A stretch of DNA of 64,000 nucleotides from Rhizobiales bacterium Y(2018) (GTDB taxonomy: Bacteria > Pseudomonadota > Alphaproteobacteria > Rhizobiales > Aestuariivirgaceae), in assembly GCA_005502925.1 (NCBI GenBank), contig SCPD01000002.1, forward strand, positions 434,001-498,000, given 5' to 3'. The notes below the pieces were generated by a model, which did no database searches, was not told where the DNA came from, and saw only the letters and a program-made list of their open reading frames with translations. The position numbers and the translations under genes were made by a program. This document shows positions 40,914 through 64,000 of this stretch, one piece after another (the first letter of the stretch is position 1; each line of letters opens with the position of its first letter).

Positions 40914-42029
40914 ATGAGGCAGGTCTCCGAACAAGAAGTGCTGCGCGTCGATGGCGCGCGCAAGACCTTTCGTACGCCGGAAAGCGGCGTGGTGACGCCG
41001 CTCGACGGCATCACTTTGTCGATCCGCAACAACGAGTTTCTGACCCTGCTCGGGCCGTCGGGCTGCGGCAAGACGACCTTGCTCAAGACCATCGCCGGCT
41101 TCGAGGAGCTGGACGAGGGCGAGATCTTTCTCGAAGGCCGCGCCATGAGCGCCGTGCCGGCGCATCGCCGGCCCTTCAACACCGTGTTCCAGAACTATGC
41201 GCTGTTCCCGCATATGACGGTCGCCGGCAATGTCGGTTATGGCCTGCAGGTGGCGGGTGTGAAGCGGGGCGAGGAGACGGCGCGGGTCACCGACGTGCTG
41301 CGCCTCGTCGGTTTGAGCGGGCTCGAGCGGCGCAAGCCCGCGCAGTTGTCGGGTGGCCAGCAGCAGCGTGTGGCCTTGGCGCGCGCACTGATCAACCGGC
41401 CGCGGGTGCTGCTTCTCGATGAATCCTTGTCGGCGCTCGACCGCAAATTGCGCCAGTCGATGCAGATCGAGCTCAAGAATCTGCAGAACACCGTCGGCAT
41501 TACCTTCATCTTCGTCACCCACGACCAGGAAGAGGCGCTCACCATGTCCGACCGCATCGCGGTCATGGACAAAGGCCGCATCCTCCAGCTCGGCACGCCG
41601 GCGGAAATCTATGACACGCCGAAAAACCGCTTTGTCGCCGGCTTCATCGGCACCAGCAACATCTTCAGCGGCACGCTGGCGAAGGACGGCGGCACGTCGC
41701 GCGTCGAGATCGAAAGCGGCCCGGCCATTGCCGTGACGGCGGATGGTTTCGCCGCGGGCGACAAGGTCGATGTCATGCTGCGGCCCGAGCATTTCGCGCT
41801 TGCCTCCGGCAGGAATGGCGCCGGCGGCAGTCTCGAGGCGGTGATCGAGAATATCGTCTTTGTCGGCACTGATCTGCATCTTCATGGCCGCCTCGCCAAT
41901 GGCCTGCCGGTGGTGGCGCTCGAACGCCATGCCCGTGGTGCCGGTGCTCTGTCGCTGGCGCCCGGCCAGACGGTCACGCTGCATTATCAGGCGACCGCGC
42001 CTCATCTCATGAAGAGCCAGGCGGTGTGA
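40914..42029 (+). CDS. potA: polyamine-type ABC transporter ATP-binding protein (PotA-like)
   Basis: A 371-residue ATPase with Walker [10 protein letters not shown] (47-55), Q-loop [13 protein letters not shown], signature [15 protein letters not shown], Walker [13 protein letters not shown], switch [15 protein letters not shown] and a C-terminal TOBE domain. Note DES rather than DEP after Walker B. It is the first gene of a complete PotABCD-like importer. Confidence 0.93.
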
Positions 42030-42952
42030 TGGCGGAGGGCGGCACCATAAGCAGCCAGAGGCGGAAGGCGCTTTTCGTCCTCCTGACGCCCATCACCCTT
42101 CTGCTCGGCGCCTTCTTCCTGATCCCGCTCGGCATCATGGTGGTCTACAGCTTCCTCGAACCCGGCCTCTATGGCGGCGTCGTCTGGTCTTTCTATCCCT
42201 ATAATTACGGCCGCATCTTCGGCTGGCCCTTGGGCGGCGGCGAGGAATTCGAGCCGCTTTACATCCAGATTATCCTGAACTCGCTTTATTACGCCGCCCT
42301 CACCGTCATCGTCACGCTGGTCGTCTGCTATCCGGTGGCGTTCTGGGTGAGCCGCATGGGGCCGATGGCCAAGAACATCGTGCTGTTCGCCATCACGCTG
42401 CCTTTCTTCGCCAATCTCCTGGTGCGCATCTATGCCTGGCTGCTCCTGCTGCGTCCGACCGGCGCCGTCAACACGGCGCTGATGTCGCTTGGGCTGATTG
42501 ATCAGCCGCTCAACATGATCTTCACCGAATTCGCGGTGATCGTCGGTCTCGTCTATGTGCTGACACCTTTCATGTTCCTGCCCATCTATGCGAGCGTCGA
42601 ACGGCTCGACTGGTCGCTGGTGCAGGCCTCGCAGGATCTGGGCGCCACGCCGTTTCAGACTTTCCGGCGCGTGATCCTGCCTTTGACCGCGCCGGGCATC
42701 GCCGGCGGCTGCGTCATCGTCTTCATCCCGGCGCTCGGCAATTTCATCGTGCCGTCCTTCCTCGGCGGCTCCAAGGTGCAGATGACCGGCAATGTCATCG
42801 AGCGCCAGTTCCTTCAGGCGCGCAACTGGCCCTTCGGCTCGACGCTGGCGATGATCGTGATGGCGAGTGTCCTGCTTCTGGTGCTGGCCTACACATTGTG
42901 GATGCGCCGCGCCGCCAACAATGAACGCCTCGCGGGGGCCGGCCATGTCTAA
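42029..42952 (+). CDS. potB: polyamine-type ABC transporter permease (PotB-like)
   Basis: A 307-residue permease. ATG 42029 shares a base with the ATPase stop (TGATG); a GTG at 42026 is in frame. It shows FLIPLGIMVVYSF near the N-terminus and the EAA loop VQASQDLGATPFQTFRRVILPLTAPGIAGG (about 200-228). It overlaps the next gene by 8 bases. Confidence 0.93.
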   Translation: MAEGGTISSQRRKALFVLLTPITLLLGAFFLIPLGIMVVYSFLEPGLYGGVVWSFYPYNYGRIFGWPLGGGEEFEPLYIQIILNSLYYAALTVIVTLVVCYPVAFWVSRMGPMAKNIVLFAITLPFFANLLVRIYAWLLLLRPTGAVNTALMSLGLIDQPLNMIFTEFAVIVGLVYVLTPFMFLPIYASVERLDWSLVQASQDLGATPFQTFRRVILPLTAPGIAGGCVIVFIPALGNFIVPSFLGGSKVQMTGNVIERQFLQARNWPFGSTLAMIVMASVLLLVLAYTLWMRRAANNERLAGAGHV

Positions 42953-43781
42953 GCGCCGCTTCTCATCGGGCTGGACGGCGCTCCATATCTATGGCGCGGC
43001 CTTCCTCATCTTTCTTTATGCGCCTCTGGCCCTGATCACTGTCTATTCCTTCAATTCCAACGCCCTCAACATGGCGGTGTGGACCGGTTTCACCTTCGAT
43101 TGGTACCGCACCTTGTTCGGCATGCAGCCGGCGGGTGCGGCCTTCGACGCCGCCTTCACCGAAAATCCCGACCGCCTCCTGGGCGTCCTGCGCAACAGCC
43201 TGATCGTCGCTTTGTCGGCGAGCGCCATCTCGACCGTCATTGGAACGGCGACCGCGCTCGCCACCGCGCGTTATGACTTCATCGGCAAGCGCATCTATCA
43301 GGCTCTGCTGTTCATGCCGATGATCATGCCCGACATCGTGCTCGGCATAGCGCTGTTGATCTTCTTCGTCGGCGTCGGCTTCAAGCTGAGCCTCGCCACC
43401 ATCATCATCGGCCACTGCACCTTCCTGTCGAGTTATGTCTATATCATCGTGGCGGCGCGCCTTGCCGGCATGGACAACACGCTCGAAGTCGCTTCCGCCG
43501 ATCTGGGCGCGGGGCCGGTCACGACCTTCAGGCGGGTGACCTTGCCCTTGATCATGCCAGGCGTGATCGGAGGCTTCCTGCTCGCCTTCATCATCTCGCT
43601 CGATGACGTCGTCATCACCTATTTCATCGCCGGCGTCGATACCCAGACCTTGCCGCTCTTCATCCTCGCCATGGTCCGGCGCGGGATAAGACCGCAGATC
43701 AATGCTTTGGCCGTGCTGCTGATCATGTTCTCCTTCGTGGTGGCGAGCGCCGGCCTCTATTTCAGATCGCGTAGAAACTAG
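42945..43781 (+). CDS. potC: polyamine-type ABC transporter permease (PotC-like)
   Basis: A 278-residue permease from ATG 42945 (MSKRRFSSG), since the longer frame upstream overlaps potB. It shows FLIFLYAPLALITVYSFNSN, a periplasmic loop slightly longer than usual (FGMQPAGAAFDAAFTENPDRLLG), and the EAA loop VASADLGAGPVTTFRRVTLPLIMPGVIGG. Confidence 0.93.
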   Translation: MSKRRFSSGWTALHIYGAAFLIFLYAPLALITVYSFNSNALNMAVWTGFTFDWYRTLFGMQPAGAAFDAAFTENPDRLLGVLRNSLIVALSASAISTVIGTATALATARYDFIGKRIYQALLFMPMIMPDIVLGIALLIFFVGVGFKLSLATIIIGHCTFLSSYVYIIVAARLAGMDNTLEVASADLGAGPVTTFRRVTLPLIMPGVIGGFLLAFIISLDDVVITYFIAGVDTQTLPLFILAMVRRGIRPQINALAVLLIMFSFVVASAGLYFRSRRN

Positions 43782-43800
43782 AAAGAAAGAGGAGGAAGTG

Positions 43801-44838
43801 ATGAAGTGGCTGAAGAACATCGCATTGACGGGCGCGGCTCTTATGGCGCTGGCGGCGGGTCCGGCGCAGGCCGCCGGCGAGCTGCATCTCTATAACTGGG
43901 GCGACTACATAAATCCTGAGATCATCGACAAATTCTCCAGGGAATATGATGTGAAGGTGTCGCTCGACACCTACTCGACCAATGAGGAGATGCTGGCCAA
44001 GATCCAGGCCGGCGCCACCGGTTATGATCTCGTCTGGCCATCGGTCCATATGGCCGACATCATGGTCCAGCTTGGTCTCGTCGAGGAGAGCAAGATCAAC
44101 CAGTCCAAGGGCTTCGAGAACATCGATCCCGGCGCGTTGCGCGCCAAGCAGGACCCCAAGGCCGATTTCTGCCTGCCCTATGCCTGGGGCCCGGTCGGCA
44201 TCTTCTACAACAAGACGGTCGCCGGACAGGACTTCAAGTCGTGGAAGGATCTGTTCGACTATGCCGCGAAGAATCCCGGCCGCGTGACATTGCTCGACGA
44301 TCTGCGCGAGACGCTCGGCATCGGCCTGATTATGAATGGCAAGTCGGTGAACACCCGCGATCCCGCCGACATCAAGCTCGCCGAGGAATTCATCCTCAAG
44401 CAGAAGCCCAATATCGCGGCCTTCCGTTATGACGTGATCCCGCTGATCGAAGGCGGCGACATGGCGGCGTCGCATTATTATGTCGGCGGCGTTCTCTATG
44501 TGAACAAGCGGCCGAACGACCTGGGCTTCGTGATCCCCGAGGAAGGGGCGACGATGTACCAGGAGAATGTGTGCATGCTGAAGACGGCGCCCAACAAGGA
44601 TAACGCCAAGCTCTTCATGGAATTTCTGCTGCGCCCCGAGATCGCCGCGCAGAACTCCACCATGCTGACCAATGGTGTGGTCAACAAGGCGGCGCTCGAA
44701 TTGCTGCCGCCCGAGCTCAAGAACAATCCCGCGATCAACCCGCCGCCCGAGGTGCGCGCGAAACTGCAGATATTCGAGGATCTTGGCGCCGACCTGAAGG
44801 TCTATGACCGGGCCTGGTCGCGCATCAAGGCGAACTAG
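43801..44838 (+). CDS. potD: polyamine-type ABC transporter substrate-binding protein (PotD-like), Sec-exported
   Basis: A 345-residue protein from ATG 43801, with GGAGG 7-8 bases upstream. A Sec signal (ALTGAALMALAAGPAQAAG) is followed by ELHLYNWGDYINPEIIDKFSREYDVKVSLDTYSTNEEMLAKIQAGATGYDLVWPS, the classical PotD/PotF opening. A following aminotransferase suggests that the imported amine is transaminated. The name rests on family membership; the actual ligand is unverified. Confidence 0.92.
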   Translation: MKWLKNIALTGAALMALAAGPAQAAGELHLYNWGDYINPEIIDKFSREYDVKVSLDTYSTNEEMLAKIQAGATGYDLVWPSVHMADIMVQLGLVEESKINQSKGFENIDPGALRAKQDPKADFCLPYAWGPVGIFYNKTVAGQDFKSWKDLFDYAAKNPGRVTLLDDLRETLGIGLIMNGKSVNTRDPADIKLAEEFILKQKPNIAAFRYDVIPLIEGGDMAASHYYVGGVLYVNKRPNDLGFVIPEEGATMYQENVCMLKTAPNKDNAKLFMEFLLRPEIAAQNSTMLTNGVVNKAALELLPPELKNNPAINPPPEVRAKLQIFEDLGADLKVYDRAWSRIKAN

Positions 44839-45074: not shown

Positions 45075-46433
45075 ATGAGCAGACGCAATTATCCAAGTGC
45101 CTTCATGCATCCCTTCTCGCATATACCGACGCTCGCGGAGGAGGGGCCGGTCATCATCGACAGGGGCGAGGGCGTCTATATCTATGACGACCGCGGCCGC
45201 AAATATCTGGAAGGCAATTCGGGCCTGTGGAATGTCGTGCTCGGCTTCGACAACAAGAAGCTGATCGAGACGGCGCAACGCGCTTACGCCAAGCTTCCCG
45301 CCTATCACGCTTTCTTCGGCCGCGTCGGCCAGGCGGCGCTCGATCTCTCCGAGCGTGTCGTCAAGCTGGCGCCGATGGAAGCGAACCGCGTCTTCTATGC
45401 GAATTCCGGTTCCGAGGCGAATGACACGGTGGTGAAGCTTTTGTGGTTCCTGGCGGAGCAGGAAGGTAAGCCGCATCGCCGCCTGCTGCTCAGCCGCAAG
45501 AACGCCTATCACGGCATGACGGTGATCACCGCGAGCCTCACCGGCAAGGACTACGTGAAGTCGGCCTCGGGCCTCCCGGTGAAGGAGGTGCGCCATCTCA
45601 CTTGTCCACATCACTGGCGCGAAGCTCTGCCGAAGGAGAGCGAAACGGATTTCTCGGCCCGTCTGGCGCTCGAGCTCGAGCAGACGATCCGCAATACCGG
45701 CCCCGACTATATCGCCGGCTTCTTCGCCGAGCCGGTGATGGGCGCGGGCGGTGTCATTCCTCCTCCCGAAGGTTATTTCCAGGCCATCCAGCCGGTGCTC
45801 AAGAAATACGGCATTCCGCTCATCGCCGATGAGGTGATCTGCGGCTTCGGCCGCACCGGCGAATTCTGGGGTTCGCAGAAATACGGCATGAAGCCCGATA
45901 TCGTGGTGGCGTCCAAGGTCATCACCGCCGGCTTCTTCCCGATGGGCGCCATTATCCTCTCGCCGGAAATGACGGAGCGGATCGACAAGGCTTCGGCAAA
46001 ATATGAGGAGCTGCCGACGGGCTTCACCACCGGCGCGCATCCGGTCGGCTGCGCCATCGCCATGGCGGCGCTGGATGAGATCGAAGGCGGCGCCTTCGCC
46101 AATGTGAAGGCCCGGTCGCCGGAATTCCAGAAGCAGCTGCGCGCCATGGCCGATCACCCGATGGTGGGCGAAGCACGTGGCGTCGGCCTGATGGGCGCGC
46201 TCGAAATGGTGGCCGACAAGAAGACCAAAACGCCTTTCACCGGCAATCTCGATGTCAGCGAGCGTGTGTCGCGCCAGGCCTTGAAAAACGGGCTGATCTG
46301 CCGCCCGCTCGGCGCATCGATCGTACTGGCGCCGCCCTTCATCATCACGGATGCGCAGATATCGGAATTGTTCGGTATCCTGCGCAAGACGTTGGATGAA
46401 GTGCATCGCGATATCACCAAGAAAGCGGCGTGA
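45075..46433 (+). CDS. class III (omega) aminotransferase
   Basis: A 452-residue PLP enzyme of the omega-amino-acid/putrescine aminotransferase group. It has NSGSEANDTVVKLLWF (phosphate contact), the YHGMTV motif, Asp252 in IADEVICGFGR and Lys281 in VVASKVITAGFFPMG. The N-terminal FMHPFSHIPTLAEEGPVII is typical of pyruvate- or glutamate-dependent diamine and beta-alanine aminotransferases. It lies between PotABCD-like genes and the DMFase-like pair, so it likely deaminates the imported amine or a hydrolysis product. Confidence 0.93.
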   Translation: MSRRNYPSAFMHPFSHIPTLAEEGPVIIDRGEGVYIYDDRGRKYLEGNSGLWNVVLGFDNKKLIETAQRAYAKLPAYHAFFGRVGQAALDLSERVVKLAPMEANRVFYANSGSEANDTVVKLLWFLAEQEGKPHRRLLLSRKNAYHGMTVITASLTGKDYVKSASGLPVKEVRHLTCPHHWREALPKESETDFSARLALELEQTIRNTGPDYIAGFFAEPVMGAGGVIPPPEGYFQAIQPVLKKYGIPLIADEVICGFGRTGEFWGSQKYGMKPDIVVASKVITAGFFPMGAIILSPEMTERIDKASAKYEELPTGFTTGAHPVGCAIAMAALDEIEGGAFANVKARSPEFQKQLRAMADHPMVGEARGVGLMGALEMVADKKTKTPFTGNLDVSERVSRQALKNGLICRPLGASIVLAPPFIITDAQISELFGILRKTLDEVHRDITKKAA

Positions 46434-46649: not shown

Positions 46650-46979
46650 ATGGCGCGTTATCAGATCATGGCGGACGATGTGCCCTTCGCGCGGGAATTC
46701 ATGGCCGATCCTTTCGGTTATCGAAGTCCCGGCCTGCAGCGGGTGCTCAATGTCATGCGCGGCCTTGGGCCTAAAGGCAAATATGTCATTCTCTGCACGG
46801 AGCCGTACCGGCGCTGGCAGCTTGCCCGGCTGCCGGCGCGGCGGGGCGAGCCCATCGAAGCGGTCGAGGGCGTCGATTATGACGATCTCGCCACCGCAGA
46901 GCGCGATGTCTTCCTGCGGCGCTGGCATGATCTCGGCGGCCCTGACTTGCCCTTGGAACTTCTGACGATGCGGCGCTGA
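46650..46979 (+). CDS. N,N-dimethylformamidase small-subunit-like protein (module A)
   Basis: A 109-residue protein whose paralogue is at 62306-62608. Shared residues include AREF-x2-PFG, LQR-x-LN, the (I/V)-x-CT-x-P-x3-W-x-LAR segment, EP and the C-terminal AE-x-D-x-F-x2-RW. Both are directly followed by the large subunit, as in N,N-dimethylformamidase (DmfA1/DmfA2), which hydrolyses dimethylformamide to dimethylamine and formate. It starts with AAGGA upstream and ends 3 bases before the large-subunit gene. The amide substrate is unknown. Confidence 0.75.
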   Translation: MARYQIMADDVPFAREFMADPFGYRSPGLQRVLNVMRGLGPKGKYVILCTEPYRRWQLARLPARRGEPIEAVEGVDYDDLATAERDVFLRRWHDLGGPDLPLELLTMRR

Positions 46980-46982: not shown

Positions 46983-49172
46983 ATGCTTTCTCTCATTGCC
47001 TATACGAACACACTGAGTGCCGCGCCCGGCGAGACGATCGCCGTGAAAGTCGGTTCCTATGGCGCGCGGACCTATCGCGCCGATCTGCGCCGCATCATCC
47101 AGGGTGACCGTCATCCCGATGCGCCGGGCTATAAGGACGAAGCGATCGCGCTCGATCTCGGCGGCGAACGAACCGCACGCCGTCAGGCAATCCGTGCGGG
47201 TTCCTATGTCCGGATCGCGGATCGTGGCGGCGTGCTCGCGGATATCAAGAGTTTCACCCTGGCGGTTCCGGTTCTGCCGACGCTCATCGGCGAGACGGAG
47301 CGGACGATCTTCCATCTCACCGGCATCGACCTCGAAGTGCTGATCGACGCGGAAGGCCGTTCCTGCGTAAAGCTTGGCGACGCGCGGCTGACGCTCGCAG
47401 CACCACTGGCCGTCAAGCAGTGGACGCTCCTGATCCTGTCCTTCGACAAAGGCGAGCTGCGTCTCTCGGCCTTGACCCGAGAGAGCGAGATAATCACGAC
47501 GGGCAAGACTTCCGCCACGCTGCGCCGGAATGGCCCTGTCGGCGTGATGATCGCGGCCCGAGCGCCGGGAGAAAACCATTTCGACGGCAAGATCGATTCA
47601 CCCGTTCTGTTCAGCCGCGCGCTCGAGCCTTTGGAAACCATGGCGCGGCTGGCGCTGCCGCAGAATTTGAGCCGCTTGCCGGATCTCGTCGCCTTCTGGG
47701 ATTTCTCCCGCAGCATCGACGGCACCGAGGTGATCGACGCGTCGCCGCATCAGCTTCATGGCAAGACGGCGCAATGCCCGGCGCGCGCCATGACCGGCTG
47801 GCGCTGGGCCGGTCAATGCCAGGACTGGCGTCAGATCCCGGAGCTCTATTCGGCGATCCATTTCCACGCCGACGACATGACGGATGCCGAATGGCAGACC
47901 GATTTCGAGGTGACGCTGCCGAAGAGCCTCAAAAGCGGCCTCTATGCCATCCGCCTCGCGCCCGACGGCGATGAAGCGCAGGCCTATCATTGCGTCTTCG
48001 CGGTGCGACCGCCGCGAGCAACGCCCTCCGGCAACACGGTCTGCTTCCTGCTGCCGACGGCGAGCTATCTCGCTTACGCCAATCATCGGCTCGGTCTCGA
48101 CGTGCCGGGCACCGAAGTGGGCATGGGCCGTCTCGTCGAGATCGACCGGCATCATGCCTTTCTGCAGGAACATCCCGAGCTCGGTTTCTCCTTCTATGAA
48201 GTCCATGGCGATGGCAGTGGCGTTTTCCATTCCTCGCGCAACCGGCCGGTCGTCGATTTGCAGCCCGGCGTCAAAGGTTTCCTCGGCGGCCTCGGCTCCA
48301 ATGTCTGGCAGCTCACCGCCGATACCCACATCACCGGCTGGCTCGAGCATCAGGGCGTCACCTATGATGTGATCACCGATGAGGATCTGCATCGCGACGG
48401 CCTCTCCCTCTTGCGCCAGTACAATGTGGTGCTGACCGGCACCCATCCCGAATATCATTCGCTTCAGATGATCGACGCGTTGCAGGGCTTCGTCGATCGC
48501 GGCGGCCGGCTCATGTATCTGGGCGGCAATGGTTTCTATTGGCGCATCTCCTTCAGCGACGCGCATCCGGGCGTCATCGAATGCCGCCGCTCGGAAGCGG
48601 GCATCAGGCCCTGGGAGCCGGGGCAGGGGCAGTTCCATCATGCCTTCACCGGCGAATATGGCGGCCTGTGGCGGCGTAACGGCCGGCCTTCGACCGAGCT
48701 TGCCGGTCTCATCATGAGCTCGCAGGGTTTTGATCTCTCCGAGCCTTATGAATTGTCCGCGGCCGCCACAGATTCACGCGCCGATTTCATCTTCGACGGG
48801 ATAGATCGCACGCCGGGCCGCAAATTCGGCGCCTTCGGCCTGTCGGGCGGTGGCGCCGCCGGCATGGAGATCGATCGTGCCGACTTCGGATTGGGCACGC
48901 CTCGCAATGCGCTCATTCTCGGCAGCTCGAAGAGACACACCGACATCTATCTGATGACGCCCGAGGACATGCTCGACCCCACACCCGATATGTCGGGCAC
49001 ACAGAATGATACGATCCGCGCGGACCTCGTCTATTTCGAGAAGGAAGGCGGCGGCGCCGTCTTCTCTGTCGGCTCGATTGCCTGGGCCGGCGCCATGGCC
49101 TGGAACAGCTATGACAACGAGGTCGCGCGGATGACCTGGAATGTGCTCCGGCGCTTCGACAAGAAGGGTTAA
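46983..49172 (+). CDS. N,N-dimethylformamidase large-subunit-like protein (module A)
   Basis: A 729-residue protein, close to the length of known DMFase large subunits. The N-terminal region (about 85-240) looks like a concanavalin/LamG-type beta sandwich, and the C-terminal part (about 345-729) is an amidotransferase-like alpha/beta domain. The family uses a mononuclear iron held by two tyrosines and a carboxylate; candidates here are Tyr365 (YLAYANH), Tyr405 (FSFYEVHGDGSG) and Glu490 in THPEYHS, to be confirmed by alignment. Homologues occur widely with unknown amide substrates. Here the context is an amine importer and aminotransferase. It ends in a 4-base convergent overlap with the IclR gene. 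Confidence 0.82.
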   Translation: MLSLIAYTNTLSAAPGETIAVKVGSYGARTYRADLRRIIQGDRHPDAPGYKDEAIALDLGGERTARRQAIRAGSYVRIADRGGVLADIKSFTLAVPVLPTLIGETERTIFHLTGIDLEVLIDAEGRSCVKLGDARLTLAAPLAVKQWTLLILSFDKGELRLSALTRESEIITTGKTSATLRRNGPVGVMIAARAPGENHFDGKIDSPVLFSRALEPLETMARLALPQNLSRLPDLVAFWDFSRSIDGTEVIDASPHQLHGKTAQCPARAMTGWRWAGQCQDWRQIPELYSAIHFHADDMTDAEWQTDFEVTLPKSLKSGLYAIRLAPDGDEAQAYHCVFAVRPPRATPSGNTVCFLLPTASYLAYANHRLGLDVPGTEVGMGRLVEIDRHHAFLQEHPELGFSFYEVHGDGSGVFHSSRNRPVVDLQPGVKGFLGGLGSNVWQLTADTHITGWLEHQGVTYDVITDEDLHRDGLSLLRQYNVVLTGTHPEYHSLQMIDALQGFVDRGGRLMYLGGNGFYWRISFSDAHPGVIECRRSEAGIRPWEPGQGQFHHAFTGEYGGLWRRNGRPSTELAGLIMSSQGFDLSEPYELSAAATDSRADFIFDGIDRTPGRKFGAFGLSGGGAAGMEIDRADFGLGTPRNALILGSSKRHTDIYLMTPEDMLDPTPDMSGTQNDTIRADLVYFEKEGGGAVFSVGSIAWAGAMAWNSYDNEVARMTWNVLRRFDKKG

Positions 49173-52452: not shown

Positions 52453-52487
52453 CCGCATCCGGCTGGATTTCATCGGGAGGAATGAAG

Positions 52488-54427: not shown

Positions 54428-54456
54428 CGCCCGCGTTTTTCTAGAAGGACCAGCCT

Positions 54457-55314
54457 ATGCGACTTTTGAGTTTTCGTGCCGGCGGCAAGGACCGTTTCGG
54501 CGCCGTGATCGATACGGGTGTCGTCGATCTCTCGGCGCGCCTGAAGCAGCAGAGCCTGCGCCAGCTCATTGCCGAGATGCCGCGCGCCGATATCCAGGCG
54601 GAGATCGCCAGAGCGAGCGCCGATTTCTCACTCGCTGAGATCGACTATCTTGTCCCGGTTCCCGATGCTGACAAGATCATCTGCGTCGGCGTCAACTATG
54701 CCGACCGCAATGCCGAATATAAGGACGGCTCCGAGCTTCCCAAATTCCCGAGCCTGTTCCTGCGCAGCCGCGGCTCCTTTGTCGGCCATGGCCAGCCTTT
54801 GCTGCTGCCGCCCGAGTCACCGCAATTCGACTATGAAGGCGAGATCGTCCTGGTGATCGGTAAAGGCGGGCGCCGCATCCCGGCGGAATCGGCGCTGGAC
54901 CATATTTTCGGCCTCACCATCTGCAATGAAGGCAGCGTGCGCGACTGGATGCGCCATGCCAAGTTCAACGTCACCCAGGGCAAGAACTTCCACGCCTCGG
55001 GCAGCATCGGCCCGTGGATCGAGGTTCTCGACGATCATGCCCCGCTTGCGGCGCTCGATATCCGGACCTGGGTCAATGACGAGCTGCGCCAGGAGGAGAG
55101 CATCGCCCGCATGATGTTCCCCTTCACCTATCTGATCAATTATATCTCGACCTTCATGGAGCTGATGCCGGGCGACATGATCGTGACCGGTACGCCGACC
55201 GGATCGGGCGCGCGCTTCGACCCGCCGCGTTATCTGGTCGACGGCGATGTGGTACGCGTCGCGGTGGCGGGCGTCGGAACGCTCGAAAACCGCGTCCAGG
55301 CGGAGAGACGATAG
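54457..55314 (+). CDS. fumarylacetoacetate hydrolase-family protein (HpaG-like half)
   Basis: A 285-residue single FAH-domain protein. The C-terminal fold shows IICVGVNYADRNAE, the metal-binding DYEGEIVLVIGK with the ESL-type Glu residues, GLTICNEGSVRDW, QGKNFHASGSIGPW and LMPGDMIVTGTPTGSG. In hpa clusters such proteins act as OPET decarboxylase or HHDD isomerase; E. coli HpaG is two such domains fused, but only one is present here. Ureidoglycolate lyase-like activity is an alternative. Confidence 0.88.
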   Translation: MRLLSFRAGGKDRFGAVIDTGVVDLSARLKQQSLRQLIAEMPRADIQAEIARASADFSLAEIDYLVPVPDADKIICVGVNYADRNAEYKDGSELPKFPSLFLRSRGSFVGHGQPLLLPPESPQFDYEGEIVLVIGKGGRRIPAESALDHIFGLTICNEGSVRDWMRHAKFNVTQGKNFHASGSIGPWIEVLDDHAPLAALDIRTWVNDELRQEESIARMMFPFTYLINYISTFMELMPGDMIVTGTPTGSGARFDPPRYLVDGDVVRVAVAGVGTLENRVQAERR

Positions 55315-55326
55315 AGGAGCATCTTC

Positions 55327-56130
55327 ATGATGACACCCGAACAGGTCACGGCGGCCGCCGCGGCACTCGACCAGGCCGAGCGCGACCGCCGTCAGATCGG
55401 CCTGTTGAGCCTCACGCATCCCGGCATCGATCTCGACGACGCCTATAAGATCCAGGCCGCCTGGATGGAGCGCAAGCAGGCGCAAGGCCATCGTCAGATA
55501 GGCTGGAAGATCGGGCTGACGTCGCGCGCGATGCAGCAGGCACTCAATATCGATACGCCCGATTCCGGCGTTCTCCTCGATTCCATGGCTTTCGACGACG
55601 GCGCCGTCATTCCGCCCGACCGCTTCATCCAGCCGCGCGTCGAGGCCGAAATCGCTTTCATCATGAAGTCATCCTTGCGCGGGCCGGGCGTGACACTCTT
55701 CGACGTGCTCGACGCGACCAATTACATTTCACCGGCGCTCGAGATCCTCGACACGCGCATCCTGCGCAGCGATCCTCAGACCGGCAAGATGCGGACCGTC
55801 TTCGACACCATTGCCGATAATGCCGCCAATGCCGGCATCGTGCTGGGCGGGCGGCCGCTGCGGCCGCTCGAATCCGATCTGCGCTGGCTTGGCGCTATCG
55901 TCTCGCGCAATGGCGCGGTCGAGGAGACGGGCCTCGCCGCCGGCGTCCTCAATCATCCGGCCCGTGGCATCGCCTGGCTGGCCAATCGCCTGTCGGCCTA
56001 TGGCGGTGAGATCGCCGCCGGGCAGGTGGTGCTCTCGGGCTCCTTCATTCGCCCGGTGGAATGTCCGCACGGCTCCACCGTTGTTGCCGATTTCGGCGCC
56101 CTGGGCAGCGTCAGCTGCCATTTCGCGTGA
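55327..56130 (+). CDS. hpaH: 2-oxo-hept-4-ene-1,7-dioate hydratase (HpaH-like)
   Basis: A 267-residue hydratase of the FAH/MhpD-related fold. [40 protein letters not shown] and [40 protein letters not shown] match HpaH. It converts the ring-cleavage intermediate into 2,4-dihydroxyhept-2-enedioate. It is followed 8 bases later by the aldolase, giving the expected order. Confidence 0.92.
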
Positions 56131-56138
56131 GGATGTCG

Positions 56139-56903
56139 ATGCCGGCCCCGCAGAACCAGTTCAAACAGCGCCTTCACGCGGGAGAGCGCCAGATCGGCCT
56201 GTGGCTTGGCCTCGCCGATCCTTATGCGGCGGAACTCATTGCCGGCGCCGGCTTCGACTGGCTGGTGATCGATGGCGAGCATGCGCCCAATGACCTGCGC
56301 TCGACACTTACGCAATTGCAGGCGCTGTCGGCGCATAGCGTCAGCGCCGTTTGCCGGCCACCGGCGGGTGAGAGTTGGATGATCAAGCAACTGCTCGATA
56401 TCGGCTGCCAGACGATTCTTGTCCCCATGGTCGAGACCGCCGAACAGGCAGAGGATCTGGTGCGCGCGGTCAAATATCCGCCGCGCGGCATAAGAGGCGT
56501 CGGCGCCGGCCTCGCCAGGGCGTCGCGTTTCAACGCCATCCCGGACTATCTGGTGACCGCCGACGAGCAGACCTGCCTGCTCCTCCAGCTAGAGACGCTT
56601 GCCGGCCTCGATCAGCTCGAGGCGATCGCGGCGGTCGACGGTGTCGACGGCATTTTTATCGGCCCTGCCGATCTCGCCGCCGATATGGGGCATCTGGGCC
56701 GGCCCGGCCAGGCGGAAGTCCAGGCGCGCGTCGAGGATGCCATCACCCGCATCGTCGCCACCGGCAAGGCCGCCGGCATCCTCACTTCGGATCAGCAGCT
56801 GGCGCGCCGCTATCTGGAACTCGGCGCCCGCTTCGTGGCGGTCGGCTCCGATATCGGTCTGATCGGTGCCGCCGCGCGCCAGCTCGCCGCCGCCTATCGC
56901 TGA
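56139..56903 (+). CDS. hpaI: HpcH/HpaI-family aldolase
   Basis: A 254-residue class II metal-dependent aldolase. It shows GLWLGLADPYAAELIAGAGFDWLVIDGEHAPND, VCRPPAGESWMIKQLLDIGCQTILVPMVETAEQAEDLVRA and DGIFIGPADLAADMG. It would cleave 4-hydroxy-2-oxoheptanedioate to pyruvate and succinate semialdehyde, the last step of the pathway. ATG 56139 has GAGG 6 bases upstream; ATG 56133 is the alternative. Confidence 0.93.
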   Translation: MPAPQNQFKQRLHAGERQIGLWLGLADPYAAELIAGAGFDWLVIDGEHAPNDLRSTLTQLQALSAHSVSAVCRPPAGESWMIKQLLDIGCQTILVPMVETAEQAEDLVRAVKYPPRGIRGVGAGLARASRFNAIPDYLVTADEQTCLLLQLETLAGLDQLEAIAAVDGVDGIFIGPADLAADMGHLGRPGQAEVQARVEDAITRIVATGKAAGILTSDQQLARRYLELGARFVAVGSDIGLIGAAARQLAAAYR

Positions 56904-57586: not shown

Positions 57587-57604
57587 ACCCCCCAAATGGG
57601 GGGT
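57587..57604 (+). terminator. C/G hairpin after the LysE-family gene
   Basis: ACCCCCC-AAAT-GGGGGGT is a perfect 7-bp stem with a 4-base loop, 26 bases after the exporter stop. No T tract follows. Confidence 0.5.
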
Positions 57605-57679
57605 GCCGACTGGCGCTCGATTCACGCACGCTGCATGGCAGAGGGCTGGAGGCGGCCGGAAGGCCGACAGGAGATTGCA

Positions 57680-58159
57680 ATGGCGACACAAGTGCAGTTC
57701 GAGAGGGACTATGCGGCGTTCGGCAGTCAGGCGCGCCCGTTCGAGATGGATGACGCGGTGGGTTTCGTCATCGCGGAATTTTCGCTTCATGATGGCTGCC
57801 CGTTCTATCCGATCGGCGCCGTTCTCGGCGCCAAGATATCGACCGTCTGGCTGGGCGAGGGGGTGTCGCCCGAAGGCGATGAAAGCCATCATGCCATCAT
57901 CTTCAAGATGCGCGAGGACTATCCCTTCTTCGAGATCGTCATGCGCGGCAAGGACGGGGCGCGCTGGGGCGGCAGCCTCTATGGGCAGGCGCTGGAAGTG
58001 ACCGACGAGGTCATTGCCGGCCACCGTGTGCTCATCGTCACCGCCGATGACACGAAGGTGCGTTATGAATTCAATGCGCGCCTGGGGCAGTATATCAGCT
58101 GCATTTGCTGCGATGACGTGACGCCCACCCTGCGGATTGCCAGATCGCAGCTCCACTGA
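57680..58159 (+). CDS. hypothetical protein, 159 residues
   Basis: From ATG 57680 (GGAG upstream) the protein has no signal peptide or membrane segment and looks like a mixed alpha/beta soluble domain (FVIAEFSLHDGCPFYPIGAVLGAKISTVWLGEG, DESHHAIIFKMREDYPFFEIVMRGKDG, QYISCICCDD near the C-terminus). The Cys pair CICC could be functional. I do not recognise its family, and its neighbours do not suggest a role. Confidence 0.65.
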   Translation: MATQVQFERDYAAFGSQARPFEMDDAVGFVIAEFSLHDGCPFYPIGAVLGAKISTVWLGEGVSPEGDESHHAIIFKMREDYPFFEIVMRGKDGARWGGSLYGQALEVTDEVIAGHRVLIVTADDTKVRYEFNARLGQYISCICCDDVTPTLRIARSQLH

Positions 58160-58244: not shown

Positions 58245-58376
58245 TCGCCAGCACGCGCGCCTGCGCAAAACCGGATGGCGACCCTGCGCTTCACGCGGGT
58301 TGATTTGGCGCTTGCCTTAAGTCATCATGATAACATACATAATACTCATACAATGAATAATAACGAGGAAATGCCC

Positions 58377-59747
58377 ATGGAGAAACTGCGATTGGTCCTC
58401 GCCGGACTTTGCGCGCTGGTGCTGCTGGCGTTCAGCCAGGCGCTCGCCGCCGAACCGCCTGAAAAAGCCAAGATCGACTGGCAGCAATTCAAAGGCCAAT
58501 CGATCGAGCTCTTCCTTGTGAAGCACCCGTGGACCGATGCGATCGAGCCTTTCCTGCCGGAATTCGAGAAGCTCTCCGGCATCAAGCTTAATCTCACCAC
58601 GGTGGCCGAGGACGCTTATTGGGACAAGTCCCAGCTCGGCCTCGCCTCCACCAAGCCGCCTTTCGATGTCTTCTTCCTGTCGATGGGCCTCAATGGCTAC
58701 ACCGCCTACCAGAACAAGTGGCTGGCCAAGCTCAACGACGTGTTCGACAATCCCAAGCTGACCGACAAGGCCTGGTACCAGTATGAGGATTTCTCGCCCG
58801 CCGCGGCCTCGGCCTTCCATCTGCCGGACCCGTCGAGCCCCGACATGTACGGCGTGCCGATGTCGACCGAAGTCTACATGTTCTTCTACCGCAAGGACCT
58901 TTTCCAGGAGAACAACATCGACGTCGCCAGCCTCACCACGATGGACCAGTGGCTGGAGGCTCTGCGCAAGCTCAAGCTGCCGGAAGGCACCTATCCGGCC
59001 TCTTTGCGCGGTGGTGGTCTCGGCATCCTGGACGAGCTCAACGCCGTGGTCGCCAACAGCTGGGGCAATGCGCCCTATGCCAAGGACCGCTTCGTCTATT
59101 TCGACGACAAATGGGCGCCGCGCTTCACCGATCCCAAGGTGAAGGATGGTTTCGCCGACTGGGCCGAGCTGATGAAGATGTCGGCGCCGGGCGTCACCTC
59201 GTTCGACTGGTACGAGGCCACCACGCAATTCGCGCAAGGCAAGGCCGCCACCTTCGGGCCCGATGCGAGCCTCTTCGCCTCGATCTTTCTCGATCCCAAG
59301 CAGTCGACGGTTGCCGACAAGGTTGGTTTCAAGGCTCTGCCGGCGGGTTCGCCCGATGGCGCCCGCACCGCCATGTGGTCCTGGGGCCTGAGCATTCCGG
59401 AACGCTCCGAGAAGAAGGACGCCGCCTGGCTGTTCGTCCAATGGGCGACGAGCCCCTATATCGCCGCGCGCGTCGGCGAGAAGACCATGGCCTCGGCGCG
59501 CCAGTCGACCTGGGCCGATCCCGAATACCAGAAGAAGCTGCCTGAAGGCTTCGGCGCCGCGGTGGGTGAATCGCTGAAAGTGGCCCAGCCCTCGATCATG
59601 TATCTCGCCTCTGCCAACCAGGTGGTGCAGGGCATGCTCGACGCGCTGCATGCGATCTATCAGGGCACTCCGGTGGATGACGCGATGCAGGAGTTGCAGG
59701 ACAAGGCGACCGAGGTCGTCACGCAAGCCGGGCTCTACAAGCCGTAA
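58377..59747 (+). CDS. ABC transporter substrate-binding protein, sugar type (SBP family 1)
   Basis: A 456-residue secreted protein. ATG 58377 was chosen because GAGG lies 8 bases upstream and a Sec signal follows at once (LRLVLAGLCALVLLAFSQALA). The mature part shows FKGQSIELFLVKHPWTDAIEPFLPEFEKLSGIKLNLTTVAEDAYWDK, typical of family 1 solute-binding proteins. A T-tract terminator after the gene would keep this product in excess over the permeases. The ligand is unknown; the downstream SDR and amidohydrolase may process it. Confidence 0.92.
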   Translation: MEKLRLVLAGLCALVLLAFSQALAAEPPEKAKIDWQQFKGQSIELFLVKHPWTDAIEPFLPEFEKLSGIKLNLTTVAEDAYWDKSQLGLASTKPPFDVFFLSMGLNGYTAYQNKWLAKLNDVFDNPKLTDKAWYQYEDFSPAAASAFHLPDPSSPDMYGVPMSTEVYMFFYRKDLFQENNIDVASLTTMDQWLEALRKLKLPEGTYPASLRGGGLGILDELNAVVANSWGNAPYAKDRFVYFDDKWAPRFTDPKVKDGFADWAELMKMSAPGVTSFDWYEATTQFAQGKAATFGPDASLFASIFLDPKQSTVADKVGFKALPAGSPDGARTAMWSWGLSIPERSEKKDAAWLFVQWATSPYIAARVGEKTMASARQSTWADPEYQKKLPEGFGAAVGESLKVAQPSIMYLASANQVVQGMLDALHAIYQGTPVDDAMQELQDKATEVVTQAGLYKP

Positions 59748-59824: not shown

Positions 59825-60694
59825 ATGAAGCGCCGCATCCCCATTCTTTTTCTGCTGCCCGCGGCCGCCGTCCTCTTTCTGATCGCCGCCTATCCCGTGG
59901 GCTTCGGCCTGTGGGCGGGCCTCCATCAATGGAACTGGGCGCTAGGCCAGGCCGAGAGCTGGAACTTCATCGGCCTCGACAACTACGCCCAGGTCTTCGC
60001 CAACAAGGCCTTCTGGAATTCGATCAAGGTCACCGTCACCTTCACGGCGATCGCCGTGACATTGCAGCTCATCCTCGGCCTCGGCATCGCTATCCTGCTG
60101 CACAACAACATGCGGGCATCGTGGTTCTTCCGCTCGGCGGTGGTCTTTCCGCTGATGGTGTCGGACATCGTCGCGGCGGTCATCTTCTCGACCATCCTCG
60201 ATCCCAATCTGGGGATACTCAATTATGCCTTGAGCGTGGTCGGGCTGCCGGGACCGAACTGGATCGGCAATCCGAACCTCGTCATCATCACTTTGTCGCT
60301 CGTCGATACCTGGTGGCAGACCGGCAATATCATTCTCATTCTGCTCGCCGGCATGACCAGCATTCCGCAAGACCGCATCGACATGGCCTCGATCGATGGC
60401 GCCAGCGGCTGGCGCATGTTCTTCCACATCACCTTGCCGGCGCTGAAGCCCTTCATCCTGGTGGCGCTCGTTTTCCGCACCATCGACGCACTTCGCGTCT
60501 TCGCGCTCGCCTGGGCCATCACCAAAGGCGGGCCGTTGCGGGCCACCGAAGTGTCGCAGCTCTATATTTTCAAGCAGGGCATCGGCGGCGCCTACAATAT
60601 GGGCTATGCCTCGGCCGCCGCCACGGTCTTCGCGATCTTCGTTGGCCTCGTTGCCGGCATCTATCTGCTCGCCATGCGGAGGACGCCGGCATGA
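59825..60694 (+). CDS. sugar-type ABC transporter permease (MalF/UgpA family)
   Basis: A 289-residue permease with IPILFLLPAAAVLFLIAAYPVGFGLW at the start and the EAA loop DMASIDGASGWRMFFHITLPALKPFILVALVF (about 182-212). It overlaps the next permease by 4 bases (ATGA). The operon has no ATPase gene in the window. Confidence 0.93.
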   Translation: MKRRIPILFLLPAAAVLFLIAAYPVGFGLWAGLHQWNWALGQAESWNFIGLDNYAQVFANKAFWNSIKVTVTFTAIAVTLQLILGLGIAILLHNNMRASWFFRSAVVFPLMVSDIVAAVIFSTILDPNLGILNYALSVVGLPGPNWIGNPNLVIITLSLVDTWWQTGNIILILLAGMTSIPQDRIDMASIDGASGWRMFFHITLPALKPFILVALVFRTIDALRVFALAWAITKGGPLRATEVSQLYIFKQGIGGAYNMGYASAAATVFAIFVGLVAGIYLLAMRRTPA

Positions 60695-61521
60695 GGATCA
60701 AGCGGCGAACCTTAGGCCAGATTGCTTCCTTCACCACCTTGGCGCTGATTTCAGTGGTTTTCCTGGCACCCGTCATCTGGATCGCGCTCACGGCGCTCAA
60801 GACGCAGCGCGAGGCGCTGGCTTTGCCGCCGGTCTGGTCCTTCACGCCGCAATGGCATAATTTCATCGAGGCCTGGCAGTCCAATGACTTCGCCAAGTCC
60901 TTCCTCATCACGACATCGGTATCGGTCTTCTCGGTGGCGCTGACGCTGGCGCTTTCGATTCCCTTAGGATACGTCCTGGCGCGTTATCGCCGCGGCTGGC
61001 TCTCGGCCTTCGAGGTCGCCATCATGGTGGTGCGCATGCTGCCGGAGATCCTGTTCATGCTGCCGCTTTATGTGATCTATCAGAAAACGGCTCTGTTCGA
61101 CACACAGATCGGCATCATCCTCGCCTTCCAGATCTTCAACATTCCCTATTGCGCCTGGCTCATCCGGCAATTCATCTCGGAAGTGCCGCCTGAGCTCGAC
61201 GAGGCGGCGCTGCTCGATGGCGCTTCACTTTGGCAGGTCCTGTGGTTCGTCATCGTGCCCACCATCCGGCCGGGCATCGTCGCGGCGGCGGTGTTGTCCT
61301 TCATTGCGGTCTGGACCAATCTGCTGTTGCCGCTGGCGCTCACCTATAGCGAGACGCCGATGGTCGCGACCACCATCGCCAATTTCAAGGGCTATGGCTC
61401 CTTCAACTGGCCGGTCATGGCGGCCGCCGCGATCATATCGCTGCTGCCGCAATTCATCTTTTTCCTTTTCGCGCAGAAATATATCGTCAAGGGCCTCACT
61501 CTTGGGGCGGTCAAAGGTTGA
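60691..61521 (+). CDS. sugar-type ABC transporter permease (MalG/UgpE family)
   Basis: A 276-residue permease from ATG 60691, chosen because the longer ORF upstream reads through the first permease in another frame. The EAA loop is [33 protein letters not shown] and the C-terminus [17 protein letters not shown] is the usual MalG ending. Confidence 0.93.
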
Positions 61522-61532
61522 TGGGAGACAGC

Positions 61533-62300
61533 ATGCTTGATTTGTTGAAAATGGATGGTCGCATCGCCGTGGTGACGGGCGCCGGCCAGGGCATGGGCAA
61601 GGAGATCGCCAAGGCACTGGCCTCGCTCGGCGCCACGGTCGTCGTCGCCGAGCTGTCGCCGAAGACGGGCGAGGCGACGGCGCGCGAGATCGTCGCTAAA
61701 GGTGGCAAGGCCGAATTCCGCCAGATGGACGTGCGTGACACCAAATCGGTCATTGCCGCCGCCGACTATATCAAGGAGCGGCATGGCCGCCTCGATATCG
61801 CCGTCAACAATGCCGGCATCGTCAAGAATGCAGCGACGCTCGAGACCTCGGATGCCGACTGGCTCGAGGTGATCGAGGTCAATCTCAATGGTGTGTTCCG
61901 CTGCTGCCGCGAATTCGGCCGGCTGATGGTGGCGCAGAACAAGGGCGTCATCGTCAACATGTCGTCGAACAGCGCCGTCATCGTCGACCGCCCGCAAGTG
62001 CAACCCGCCTACAATGCCTCGAAGGCCGGCGTGTCGCAGCTCACCAAGTCGCTCGCCGTCGAATGGGCGCCGCATAATATCCGCGTCAATGCGATCGCGC
62101 CCGGTTATATCGACACCGCGCTCACCGATGCGGGCAAGGGCCAGGCCGAATGGATCAAGTTCTGGATGAGCATGACGCCGATGAACCGCTTCGGTAAGCC
62201 GGAAGAAGTGGCGCCCTTGGCCGCCTTTCTCGCCTCCGATGCCGCGAGCTACATCACCGGCGCCGTCTATCTCATCGATGGCGGCTACACGGTCTGGTAG
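61533..62300 (+). CDS. SDR-family NAD(P)-dependent oxidoreductase
   Basis: A 255-residue classical SDR with TGAGQGMG (15-22), NNAG (92-95), a Ser in NMSSNS and Tyr160/Lys164 (YNASK), ending [23 protein letters not shown] 61533 has GGGAG 5 bases upstream; TTG 61518 and ATG 61521 are other in-frame starts. The acidic residue in VVVAELSP after beta-2 suggests NAD preference. It follows the permeases directly. Confidence 0.93.
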
Positions 62301-62305: not shown

Positions 62306-62608
62306 ATGTTCAAGGTGGATCCGAGCCGCATCGATCTGGCACGCGAATTCAGGGCGAAGCCCTTTGGCCGTCACAGCGACGAACTGCAGCGCATCCTCAA
62401 TTTCTTCCGCTCCGACCCGGTGGCCCATAATTTCTGCGTGGTCTGCACCAGGCCGCACCAGGAATGGGCGCTGGCCCGTTTCAGGGCGACAAGTCGCGAG
62501 CCGGTCGATCTCTTGGGCCCCGTCTATGGCTCGCTCGAAGACGCCGAATGGGACATCTTCAAATTGCGCTGGCGCCGCCATACCGGCCAGGCGTTGGAGA
62601 TCGATTGA
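62306..62608 (+). CDS. N,N-dimethylformamidase small-subunit-like protein (module B)
   Basis: A 100-residue paralogue of 46650-46979. It has IDLAREFRAKPFGRHSDELQRILN, FCVVCTRPHQEWALARF and EDAEWDIFKLRW, aligning with the module A protein throughout. It starts 5 bases after the SDR gene and is separated from its large subunit by the inverted repeat at 62632-62733. Confidence 0.75.
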   Translation: MFKVDPSRIDLAREFRAKPFGRHSDELQRILNFFRSDPVAHNFCVVCTRPHQEWALARFRATSREPVDLLGPVYGSLEDAEWDIFKLRWRRHTGQALEID

Positions 62609-62631
62609 TGCACGCGGCCACTCCTCATTTT

Positions 62632-62733
62632 CGTCATCCCGGCGAAAGCCGGGATCCCCTAAATGCGTTCCGAACCAACAGTTGCGCCCGGCTTGCGCCT
62701 ATTCAATGGATCCCGGCTTTCGCCGGGATGACG
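62632..62733. repeat. 102-base element with perfect 26-bp inverted ends
   Basis: The ends 62632-62657 and 62708-62733 are exact reverse complements over 26 bases, and each arm is itself a hairpin (CCCGGC-GAAA-GCCGGG core). The 50-base middle has no coding content. The unit is of the GTCATCCCGGC repeat type widespread in Alphaproteobacteria. It separates the two subunit genes of module B. Confidence 0.88.
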
Positions 62734-62744
62734 GGAAAAGGGGC

Positions 62745-64000
62745 ATGATCGAAATCCTTGGCTATACCGATCGCCTGGCGGTGCGTCCCGGCGAGACCAT
62801 CGAATTCAAGGTCAGCCGTGAGACGGGCGCGGGCCCCTATCGCGCCGATATCGTGCGGCTGCGCTGCGGCGACGACCGTCCGGGCGGACCCGGCTTCCAG
62901 GAAGAGCTTGTCGCCGACGCCGTGGTGAATGGCGATTATCAGGGCCGCAAGCAGGAGATCAATTGCGGTTCGTATGTCAACGTCCCGCCGACCGCCGCTT
63001 TCAATGCGCTTGCAGGCTTCGAGCTCAGCTGCCTCATCTGGCCGACCTTGCCAGGGGTTGGCGAGCAGACGGTAATGGGAAGATGGTCGGGCGAGTGCGA
63101 TGAGGGCACGGGGTATGCCTTGTCCATCGGCAGCGACGGCAAGCCTTGCTTGCGCTTCGGCGCCAACGGAAGAATCTGGCGGCTGGTCTTTCCGGTTCCG
63201 GTTACCGCGCGGCGCTGGTACCGGCTGACCGCGCGTGTAGATTCGAAGACATCCGAAGCCCGGCTTCTCTGCGTGCCGCTCGAGGAACGCTGGGGCGATC
63301 ATCCGGTCGTCCCTTCCAGCGCCAGATCGTCTATCAAAGTAGTGACGGAAACGGACACACCTTTCACCATCGCGGCGCATCTCATCCGCGACGAAAGACG
63401 AGGCTGGCGCGGAGCCGGGCACTTCAACGGCAAGATCGAAGCGCCGGAGCTGCGTGACGGCGACGACCGTCTCGTTGCGCGCTGGGATTTCGCCCAGGAC
63501 ATTTCCGGCATCGCCATTCGCGATACCGGCCCGCACAGGCTCGACGGCGCCTGCATCAATCTGCCGACCCGCGCGATGACCGGCCATAACTGGACGGCCG
63601 AAGTGATGAACTGGCGCCAGCGGCCCGAGGAATATGCGGCGATCCATTTTCATGAGGACGATCTTTATGACTGCGCCTGGGACACCGATTTCACCTGGAC
63701 CATTCCTCAGACTCTGAAGAGCGGCATCTATGCAGCCCGTCTGTGTACGGGAGCGGCGGAGGATTATGTGCCCTTTTTCGTCCTGCCACCCAAAGGCCAA
63801 GCCACGGCGCCCGTCGCGTTCCTGGCGTCGAGCGCCACCTATCTCGCTTATGCCAATAGTCACGATCACTACGAGGATCCGGTCGCCGAACGCTGCCACG
63901 GTTTGGCGGTCCTGAGCCCGGCCGATCTATTCCTGATGCAGCGGCGTGATTTCGGGCTGTCGACTTATGATCATCACCGCGACGGCAGCGGTTCCTGCTG
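62745..64000 (+). CDS. N,N-dimethylformamidase large-subunit-like protein (module B), partial at right edge
   Basis: The reading frame is open for 418 codons from ATG 62745 to the window end. It aligns with the module A large subunit: PGETIEFKVSRETGAGPYRADIVRL, RAMTGHNWTAEVMNWRQRPEEYAAIHFHEDDL, LKSGIYAARL, TYLAYANS and LSTYDHHRDGSG, retaining the two candidate iron-ligand tyrosines. The predicted carboxylate ligand would lie beyond the edge. The beta-sandwich region (about 85-245) is more diverged and slightly longer, which may alter substrate range. The binding site is weak, probably because of the repeat just upstream. Confidence 0.8.
   Translation, partial: MIEILGYTDRLAVRPGETIEFKVSRETGAGPYRADIVRLRCGDDRPGGPGFQEELVADAVVNGDYQGRKQEINCGSYVNVPPTAAFNALAGFELSCLIWPTLPGVGEQTVMGRWSGECDEGTGYALSIGSDGKPCLRFGANGRIWRLVFPVPVTARRWYRLTARVDSKTSEARLLCVPLEERWGDHPVVPSSARSSIKVVTETDTPFTIAAHLIRDERRGWRGAGHFNGKIEAPELRDGDDRLVARWDFAQDISGIAIRDTGPHRLDGACINLPTRAMTGHNWTAEVMNWRQRPEEYAAIHFHEDDLYDCAWDTDFTWTIPQTLKSGIYAARLCTGAAEDYVPFFVLPPKGQATAPVAFLASSATYLAYANSHDHYEDPVAERCHGLAVLSPADLFLMQRRDFGLSTYDHHRDGSGSC

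Follow-up and report, generated by a model that had tools for sequence, protein, structure and literature searches.

A dimethylformamidase-type gene pair embedded in a CUT1 importer operon, with a permease-fused paralogue in the same genome

Introduction

Dimethylformamidase (DMFase) has been known chiefly for its role in solvent degradation. A 64,000-nucleotide stretch of Rhizobiales bacterium Y(2018) (G000:C22:434001-498000; here called the window) carries two gene pairs of this type, modules A and B, each beside an ABC importer of a different kind. What does an amide hydrolase do inside an importer operon, as in module B, and how do the two modules relate to each other? No importer coupling of DMFase is proposed in the accessible parts of two papers (PMC4543880, PMC10308929), and we recognized no importer-linked or permease-fused DMFase relatives in the open-access literature, a scope that excludes most subscription journals. 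The importer-embedded form, above all a permease-fused paralogue described below, is a variant worth following.

Results

Both amidase genes of module B lie inside a CUT1 importer operon

Module B reaches the right-hand edge of the window, and its right side was read from the same genome's contig (locus L009). The operon comprises seven genes on the plus strand, in the order binding protein, two permeases, SDR, small subunit, large subunit, and ATPase. The first encodes an SBP_bac_1 solute-binding protein (58275..59747; Pfam SBP_bac_1, E 5.4e-32), whose closest match among solved chains, 4rya (a sorbitol binding protein by name; E 5.2e-25), is a distant relative only. It is followed by permease 1 (59825..60694; BPD_transp_1, E 1.8e-11), permease 2 (60691..61521; BPD_transp_1, E 9.5e-21), the SDR (61518..62300; adh_short_C2, E 2.4e-73), a 100-aa protein of the DMFase small-subunit family (62306..62608), and the large subunit (DMFA2_C, E 9.1e-94), which starts at 62745, fills the window to 64000, and runs on to window-equivalent 64919. 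The UgpC/MalK-type ATPase lies outside the window (window-equivalent 64933-66000, plus strand), begins 13 nt after the large-subunit gene, contains OB_MalK and TOBE_2, and passes the curated UgpC subfamily cut-off (495.2 versus 432 bits). Gaps between genes are 78 nt or less, except for 136 nt at the repeat-bearing junction of small and large subunits. The CUT1 gene set (SBP_bac_1, two BPD_transp_1 permeases, UgpC/MalK-type ATPase) is thus complete in one operon, and because importer genes and SDR lie upstream and the ATPase directly downstream, both amidase genes are inside it. Other CUT1 importers (UgpC/MalK-type ATPase, polyol binding protein 4rya) have the same importer parts; in the B operon, unlike these, genes for an amide hydrolase and an SDR stand between those for the permeases and the ATPase.

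In the original prediction, the large-subunit gene of B was cut by the window edge. It proved whole, encoding 724 aa (L009:8746-10920) in a single frame with no stop or frameshift, which rules out truncation or frameshift beyond 64000. This frame is also open backwards into the small-subunit gene, an annotation trap. When the best 25 of 238 NCBIfam models were considered, the SDR passed only the broad subfamily PRK07231 (230 versus 215 bits) and no equivalog.

The whole operon is collinear, at about 94% nucleotide identity, in Aestuariivirga sp. YIM B02566 (locus L022), the window's nearest named relative here, whose genus belongs to Hyphomicrobiales; the small subunits are 99% and the large subunits 92% identical. 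Among the relatives compared, this is the only close relative of B with the same operon; the next (L077; 63% over the best segment) has an SBP_bac_8 protein upstream and not the B operon. Our gene caller was simple (longest ORF weighted by codon GC) and missed permease 2 in both L009 and L022; its presence in L022 was confirmed separately from the gene caller. The large subunit of L077 is spread over two overlapping ORFs of 224 and 448 aa (L077:9983-12000), either a real split or an assembly error.

Between the small- and large-subunit genes of B is a palindromic repeat at 62632..62733 (arms 62632-62664 and 62701-62733, 33 nt each), of a type that occurs repeatedly across the genome (most of 76 matches). 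In L022, which lacks the repeat, the stop codon TAG of the small-subunit gene and the start codon ATG of the large-subunit gene abut, so that the repeat in B is most simply a recent insertion. By separating the subunit genes, it could upset the balance of small and large subunits.

Two further observations concern the flanks of the operon. A 187-aa gene directly before it (window 57596-58159) has no Pfam or NCBIfam match. To the right of the window, L009:11989-18729 resembles a guanidino-acid catabolic cluster, with genes for a 5-guanidino-2-oxopentanoate decarboxylase-type enzyme, a GlcD-like FAD oxidase, DinB, an agmatinase-type enzyme, an IclR-type regulator, and SBP_bac_8.

Active site and predicted fold place module B in the DMFase family

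The large subunit of B matched the solved DMFase chain 6lvb_A over its full length (B residues 2-720 on 4-758; E 1.9e-147). According to the accessible text of PMC7686228, Tyr399, Tyr440, and Glu521 of DMFase are iron ligands and His519 and Asn547 are catalytic. Equivalents of all five were present in B, and the same residues were kept in A and in three other paralogues of the genome (residues are numbered after 6LVB by motif, the reference row being dmfA2 of P. aminophilus). The columns were nearly invariant (Y399, H519, and N547, 117/118 rows each; Y440 and E521, 118/118 rows each); the sole departures were one large-subunit copy of locus L189 (Tyr399 and His519) and locus L133 (Asn547). The small subunit of B matched only weakly in a single-sequence PDB search (E 0.026). 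A small-subunit profile built from 37 sequences matched 6lvb_B with an E value of 6.4e-14, and the AlphaFold2 model of the B protein (pLDDT 90.7) had 6lvb_B as its best Foldseek match (E 2.1e-5; TMq 0.79). Family, intact active-site residues, predicted small-subunit fold, and gene order can thus all be read from the sequence of B, and by these testable features of sequence and predicted fold the gene pair is a new putative member of the DMFase family.

The DMFase of Paracoccus (DmfA1A2, 6LVB) is like B in having two subunits in the same order, a full-length large subunit, the iron ligands, His519, Asn547, and the predicted small-subunit fold. In contrast to that enzyme, B is embedded in an ABC importer/SDR operon. 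On pAMI2 a LuxR-family activator, DmfR, is encoded beside dmfA1A2, whereas no LuxR-family activator was found among the module B neighbors typed by Pfam and NCBIfam (among these, LysE, DinB, SBP, and the operon genes could be assigned); the nearest regulator found around B is of the IclR type (L009:16680-17606). The small subunit of B is also about 30 N-terminal residues shorter than that of DMFase, with matches starting at residue 37-43 of 6lvb_B. A final difference concerns the substrate pocket. Phe693 of 6LVB narrows the DMF pocket and has been linked to poor hydrolysis of larger amides (PMC7686228, accessible text). In this column B has Ala, A has Asp, and dmfA2 of P. aminophilus has Phe, which occurs in 35 of 118 rows. 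Given Ala in place of Phe693, the substrate of B is probably larger than DMF.

The large-subunit family also includes the N-acetyl-(R)-beta-phenylalanine acylase (8HUY, 8I59, 8I5A), and from this PDB name we take the DMFase family not to be limited to DMF. No chain of these three entries matched the small-subunit profile. Module A is nearer to the acylase 8huy (451 bits) than to DMFase, whereas B is nearer to DMFase.

Modules A and B are separate old lineages

Module A, also on the plus strand, begins with importer genes for an ATPase (40914..42029; ABC_tran and TOBE_2), permease 1 (42026..42952; BPD_transp_1, E 5.2e-14), permease 2 (42867..43781, ORF start uncertain; BPD_transp_1, E 4.3e-11), and a solute-binding protein (43798..44838; SBP_bac_8, E 1.1e-32) whose best NCBIfam model was PotD at 184.8 bits, below the cut-off of 582. 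A class-III aminotransferase (45075..46433; Aminotran_3, E 1.2e-79) precedes the small subunit (46650..46979; similar to that of B; 6lvb_B, E 0.0012) and the large subunit (46983..49172; DMFA2_C, E 2.4e-90; best solved match 8huy). The original prediction held that one two-gene module recurs 15.6 kb away with different partners and has diverged, and this account stood up in each part. The small-subunit genes start 15,656 nt apart, both subunits align (small, 36% identical, E about 1e-17; large, 42%), and a Pot-type importer with an aminotransferase at A is matched at B by a sugar-type importer (SBP_bac_1 and two BPD_transp_1 permeases) with an SDR. Small and large subunits also co-diverged, as had been proposed for checking: Mantel r was 0.60 over 93 pairs (0 of 2000 permutations as high), falling to 0.33 in the more distant half, and the nearest large-subunit relative was within the three nearest small-subunit relatives in 72 of 93 pairs.

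On the large-subunit tree (built with FastTree; its branches are long, the placement of L020 and L152 is poor, and L077, with its split gene, was omitted), A grouped with four plasmid copies (support 100*), namely those of Pseudorhizobium (L148), a Rhodobacteraceae bacterium (L149), Burkholderia (L135), and Rhizobium (L147), and B was placed elsewhere. The importers of these partners are Pot-type in L148 and L149 and polar amino acid type in L135; no ABC gene is listed near L147. D-amino acid dehydrogenase and alanine racemase genes are nearby in L148 and L135. The congeners G001 and G002 both keep A, and nothing in them matches B at more than 46% identity. The two flanks of the B segment, at 57.5 kb and 69.6 kb in window coordinates, are separated by 1.5 kb in G001 as against 12.1 kb here; within the G002 stretch examined, collinearity was limited to the left flank. 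We therefore suggest that B was gained, or kept, separately from A, and their nearness seems incidental. A local tandem duplication that diverged later would account for the occurrence of the same gene pair twice within 16 kb. However, given 42% identity between the large subunits, the grouping of A with the plasmid copies away from B, and the congeners with A alone, we regard such an origin as highly improbable; the modules are not recent identical duplicates, and by their sequences A and B are best described as separate old lineages. The segment between A and a LysE-type gene (window 49172-56902) is missing there from G001 and G002 too; it holds IclR, PEP-mutase-type, TctA, FAA-hydrolase, and HpcH/HpaI aldolase genes and looks insertion-prone.

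A paralogue of the same genome is fused to an importer permease

On another contig (C36), the genome encodes a family member whose small subunit forms a single chain with the permease of its Liv-type importer. The LivM::small fusion (L019:11027-12664, G000:C36, minus strand) is 545 aa long, with BPD_transp_2 at 128-389 and the DMFase small-subunit domain at its C terminus (residues about 457-545), and the large-subunit gene follows it. Of 397 genomes drawn from the order, 16 carry the same fusion (those of G146 and G252 being cut by contig ends); it also occurs in two congeners, on a Rhizobium plasmid (L154), and, in wider draws of 385 and 398 genomes, in G418 and G1084. A large subunit follows the fusion in 15 of the 16 genomes, the exception being the G252 stretch; in G239 and G254, LivM and the small subunit are separate neighboring genes. 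Of 13 wider stretches, 9 showed no small subunit other than the fused domain, 3 had an additional free small subunit beside a large-subunit gene, and 1 had a free small subunit about 5 kb beyond its large subunit. The linker EKGGE..PEEA.E was conserved in all 18 aligned fusions (G200 and G252 were left out). Basic residues lie just after the last hydrophobic stretch of the fused LivM, which suggests that the small-subunit domain is a cytosolic tail.

Several candidate readings were rejected. An internal start yielding a free small subunit from the fusion was discarded, since the ATG after a Shine-Dalgarno-like stretch is replaced in 6 of 18 sequences (by GTG in one). Long small-subunit frames in GTDB loci were stop-to-stop frames whose upstream parts were, by eye, not protein-like; of these loci, only L019 had a LivM domain in frame. 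The Halalkalicoccus small subunit annotated as "inner-membrane translocator" is a 180-aa gene with no fusion, and the long frame of G703/L197, which has no LivM domain by profile or Pfam, was not counted. As a separate observation, locus L189 (G260:C1) has two large subunits (4784-7102 and 7583-9901) beside a LivM fusion; in the copy at 7583 an iron-ligand Tyr is replaced by Phe and the catalytic His by Arg, and it looks like a dead copy.

The LivM::small paralogue (L019 and relatives) and B belong to the same enzyme family, occur in the same genome, and lie in importer operons; they differ in that the paralogue has a branched-chain amino acid (Liv) type importer with the small subunit within the permease chain, whereas B is unfused and has a CUT1 importer. 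In the predicted fusion protein, the coupling of importer and amidase is physical, and this suggests that DMFase-type enzymes can cooperate with dedicated importers. We put forward as a tentative idea that the amidase docks on the importer and that B is an unfused form of the LivM::small principle, assembling with its CUT1 importer. Docking is the new, testable part of this proposal: with a permease::small fusion whose linker is conserved between distant genomes, the coupling of uptake and amide cleavage becomes directly testable.

Importer proximity is partly a general trait of catabolic amidases

The original prediction had envisaged the module beside other ABC importers, and a survey bore this out. 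Relatives were found in 64 of 347 genomes drawn from the window's order, with at least 99 matches (a lower bound, at most three candidates being scored per genome); 60 were taken as stretches, and left out were 6 from the window's genus, 14 from fusion loci, and 19 more. Family-wide, importers of seven classes recur; we typed these on the basis of annotation, Pfam, or gene arrangement. Nine of 18 annotated plasmid loci (19 in all, picked from the best-ranked matches and not at random) had same-strand ABC importer genes adjoining the module, of the Dpp (three), Pot (three), PAAT, Liv fusion, and CUT2 classes by this typing. Over 31 typed tips and 8 importer labels, one of which lumps three untyped loci, the FastTree tree required at least 10 label changes, compared to a shuffled minimum of 13, which would mean that the importer was switched repeatedly, with some inheritance. 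The accompanying idea in the original prediction, that the family supplies interchangeable amidases for different imported amides, is more speculative.

The strength of the association depended on the control. Within the window's order, ABC genes were found in the same run for 16/38 clusters versus 14/166 random control genes (P = 2.5e-6) and within 5 kb for 28/38 clusters versus 25/99 control genes; the random controls came from 40 other stretches of these contigs, for the most part at a distance of about 100 kb, and these P values treat neighboring control genes as independent, which they are not. Compared to ordinary amidases (PF01425; 19 of 20 loci used, one having no amidase call), the excess was not significant either in the same run (16/38 versus 5/19; P = 0.38) or within 5 kb (28/38 versus 9/19; P = 0.077); PF03069 was too rare to serve as a control. 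Within the same stretches, ABC genes were enriched at the gene level (41/149 versus 57/429; P = 1.3e-4), and with a gap of 250 the comparison gave P = 0.82 for runs of at least 3 genes (16/38 versus 18/48) and P = 0.034 for runs of at least 2 genes (16/38 versus 24/106). In the GTDB set, the corresponding counts were 31/135 versus 46/572 at the gene level and 11/46 versus 12/74 at the operon level (P = 0.34). The ABC profiles catch exporter ATPases too, alike in all sets, and the 14 matches at fusion loci are outside the 60 counted stretches. Since the PF01425 control left no significant excess and the within-stretch controls were mixed, importer proximity is partly a general trait of catabolic amidases; what speaks specifically for importer coupling is the fusion, together with the nested operon.

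Module B probably hydrolyzes an amide imported by its own transporter

Considering these data together, we think it likely, on sequence grounds, that B is a cytosolic mononuclear-iron DMFase-type amide hydrolase dedicated to a compound imported by its own CUT1 transporter. In the mechanism that we infer, the binding protein would capture an amide-bearing, probably hydroxylated compound, which the CUT1 importer would bring into the cytosol. There, Fe(III), with two Tyr and one Glu as its ligands, would polarize the amide carbonyl, and water would cleave the C-N bond with the assistance of His and Asn; the large subunit would be catalytic and the small subunit stabilizing. The SDR would then oxidize a hydroxyl of one product or act next to it. 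CUT1 binding proteins usually take sugars or polyols, not amides. That the substrate is specifically a hydroxylated amide is a suggestion we make with reservation. SDR genes are likewise next to the large-subunit gene in Variovorax (L144), A. larrymoorei (L136), L097, and L063, and L136 and L063 have a DSD1-family or alanine-racemase-fold PLP enzyme as well; the SDRs of B, L136, and L144 are mutually only 29-35% identical. SDR genes were not enriched in large-subunit runs (3/135 versus 8/572 genes; P = 0.45), so that the argument for an SDR step comes from B itself. If importer and amidase have a common substrate, the ligands of the easily purified binding proteins would reveal the family's role.

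Two other functions were weighed. B could be a true dimethylformamidase or small-formamide hydrolase, with the CUT1 importer a bystander; the full-length homology and the identical iron ligands fit such an enzyme, and DMF would probably need no importer. However, the pocket residue Phe693 is replaced, B is only 39.4% identical to DmfA2 of pAMI2 and falls outside the branch that holds it, the tested neighbors include no LuxR-type activator of the kind found with dmfA1A2, and the amidase sits between permease and ATPase genes of one operon. We consider this improbable. Somewhat less improbable, though still unlikely, is an N-acyl amino acid or amine acylase resembling 8huy that feeds guanidino- or arginine-type catabolic genes on the right. 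A solved family member has such activity by its PDB name, and within 8 kb to the right are genes for the 5-guanidino-2-oxopentanoate decarboxylase-type enzyme (629.6 bits, cut-off 500), the agmatinase-type enzyme (182.8 bits, cut-off 174.3), and an SBP_bac_8 protein. On the other hand, DMFase is a better match to B than 8huy is (495.9 versus 459.1 bits), the genes for the decarboxylase and the agmatinase run in the opposite direction to B, and G001, which lacks B, has the agmatinase region.

Other family members

Beyond A and B, the genome has three more full-size members and one short relative. In addition to the member on C36, C9 carries small and large subunits followed by an aminoglycoside 3-N-acetyltransferase family gene; at C34 no small subunit was found, and an NMT1-type binding protein adjoins. 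The short relative, on C11 (L021:8158-9771), is a 537-aa DMFA2_C protein whose gene immediately follows that for the ATPase in an importer operon of the SBP_bac_1 type; no small subunit was found at this locus.

In four Binatia loci (L069, L070, L071, and L082), large subunits occur without a recognized small subunit, and a 206-aa gene that precedes each might replace it. A second dmfA1-dmfA2-like locus of Paracoccus aminophilus, on pAMI5, was not found to be linked to DMF use in the accessible parts of PMC4543880, and relatives with other substrates are therefore to be expected. The DMFase-like modules of this plasmid (L133) and of a Rhodococcus plasmid (L146) lie near a gene for an AmiS/UreI family channel, a possible further amide uptake partner for these modules.
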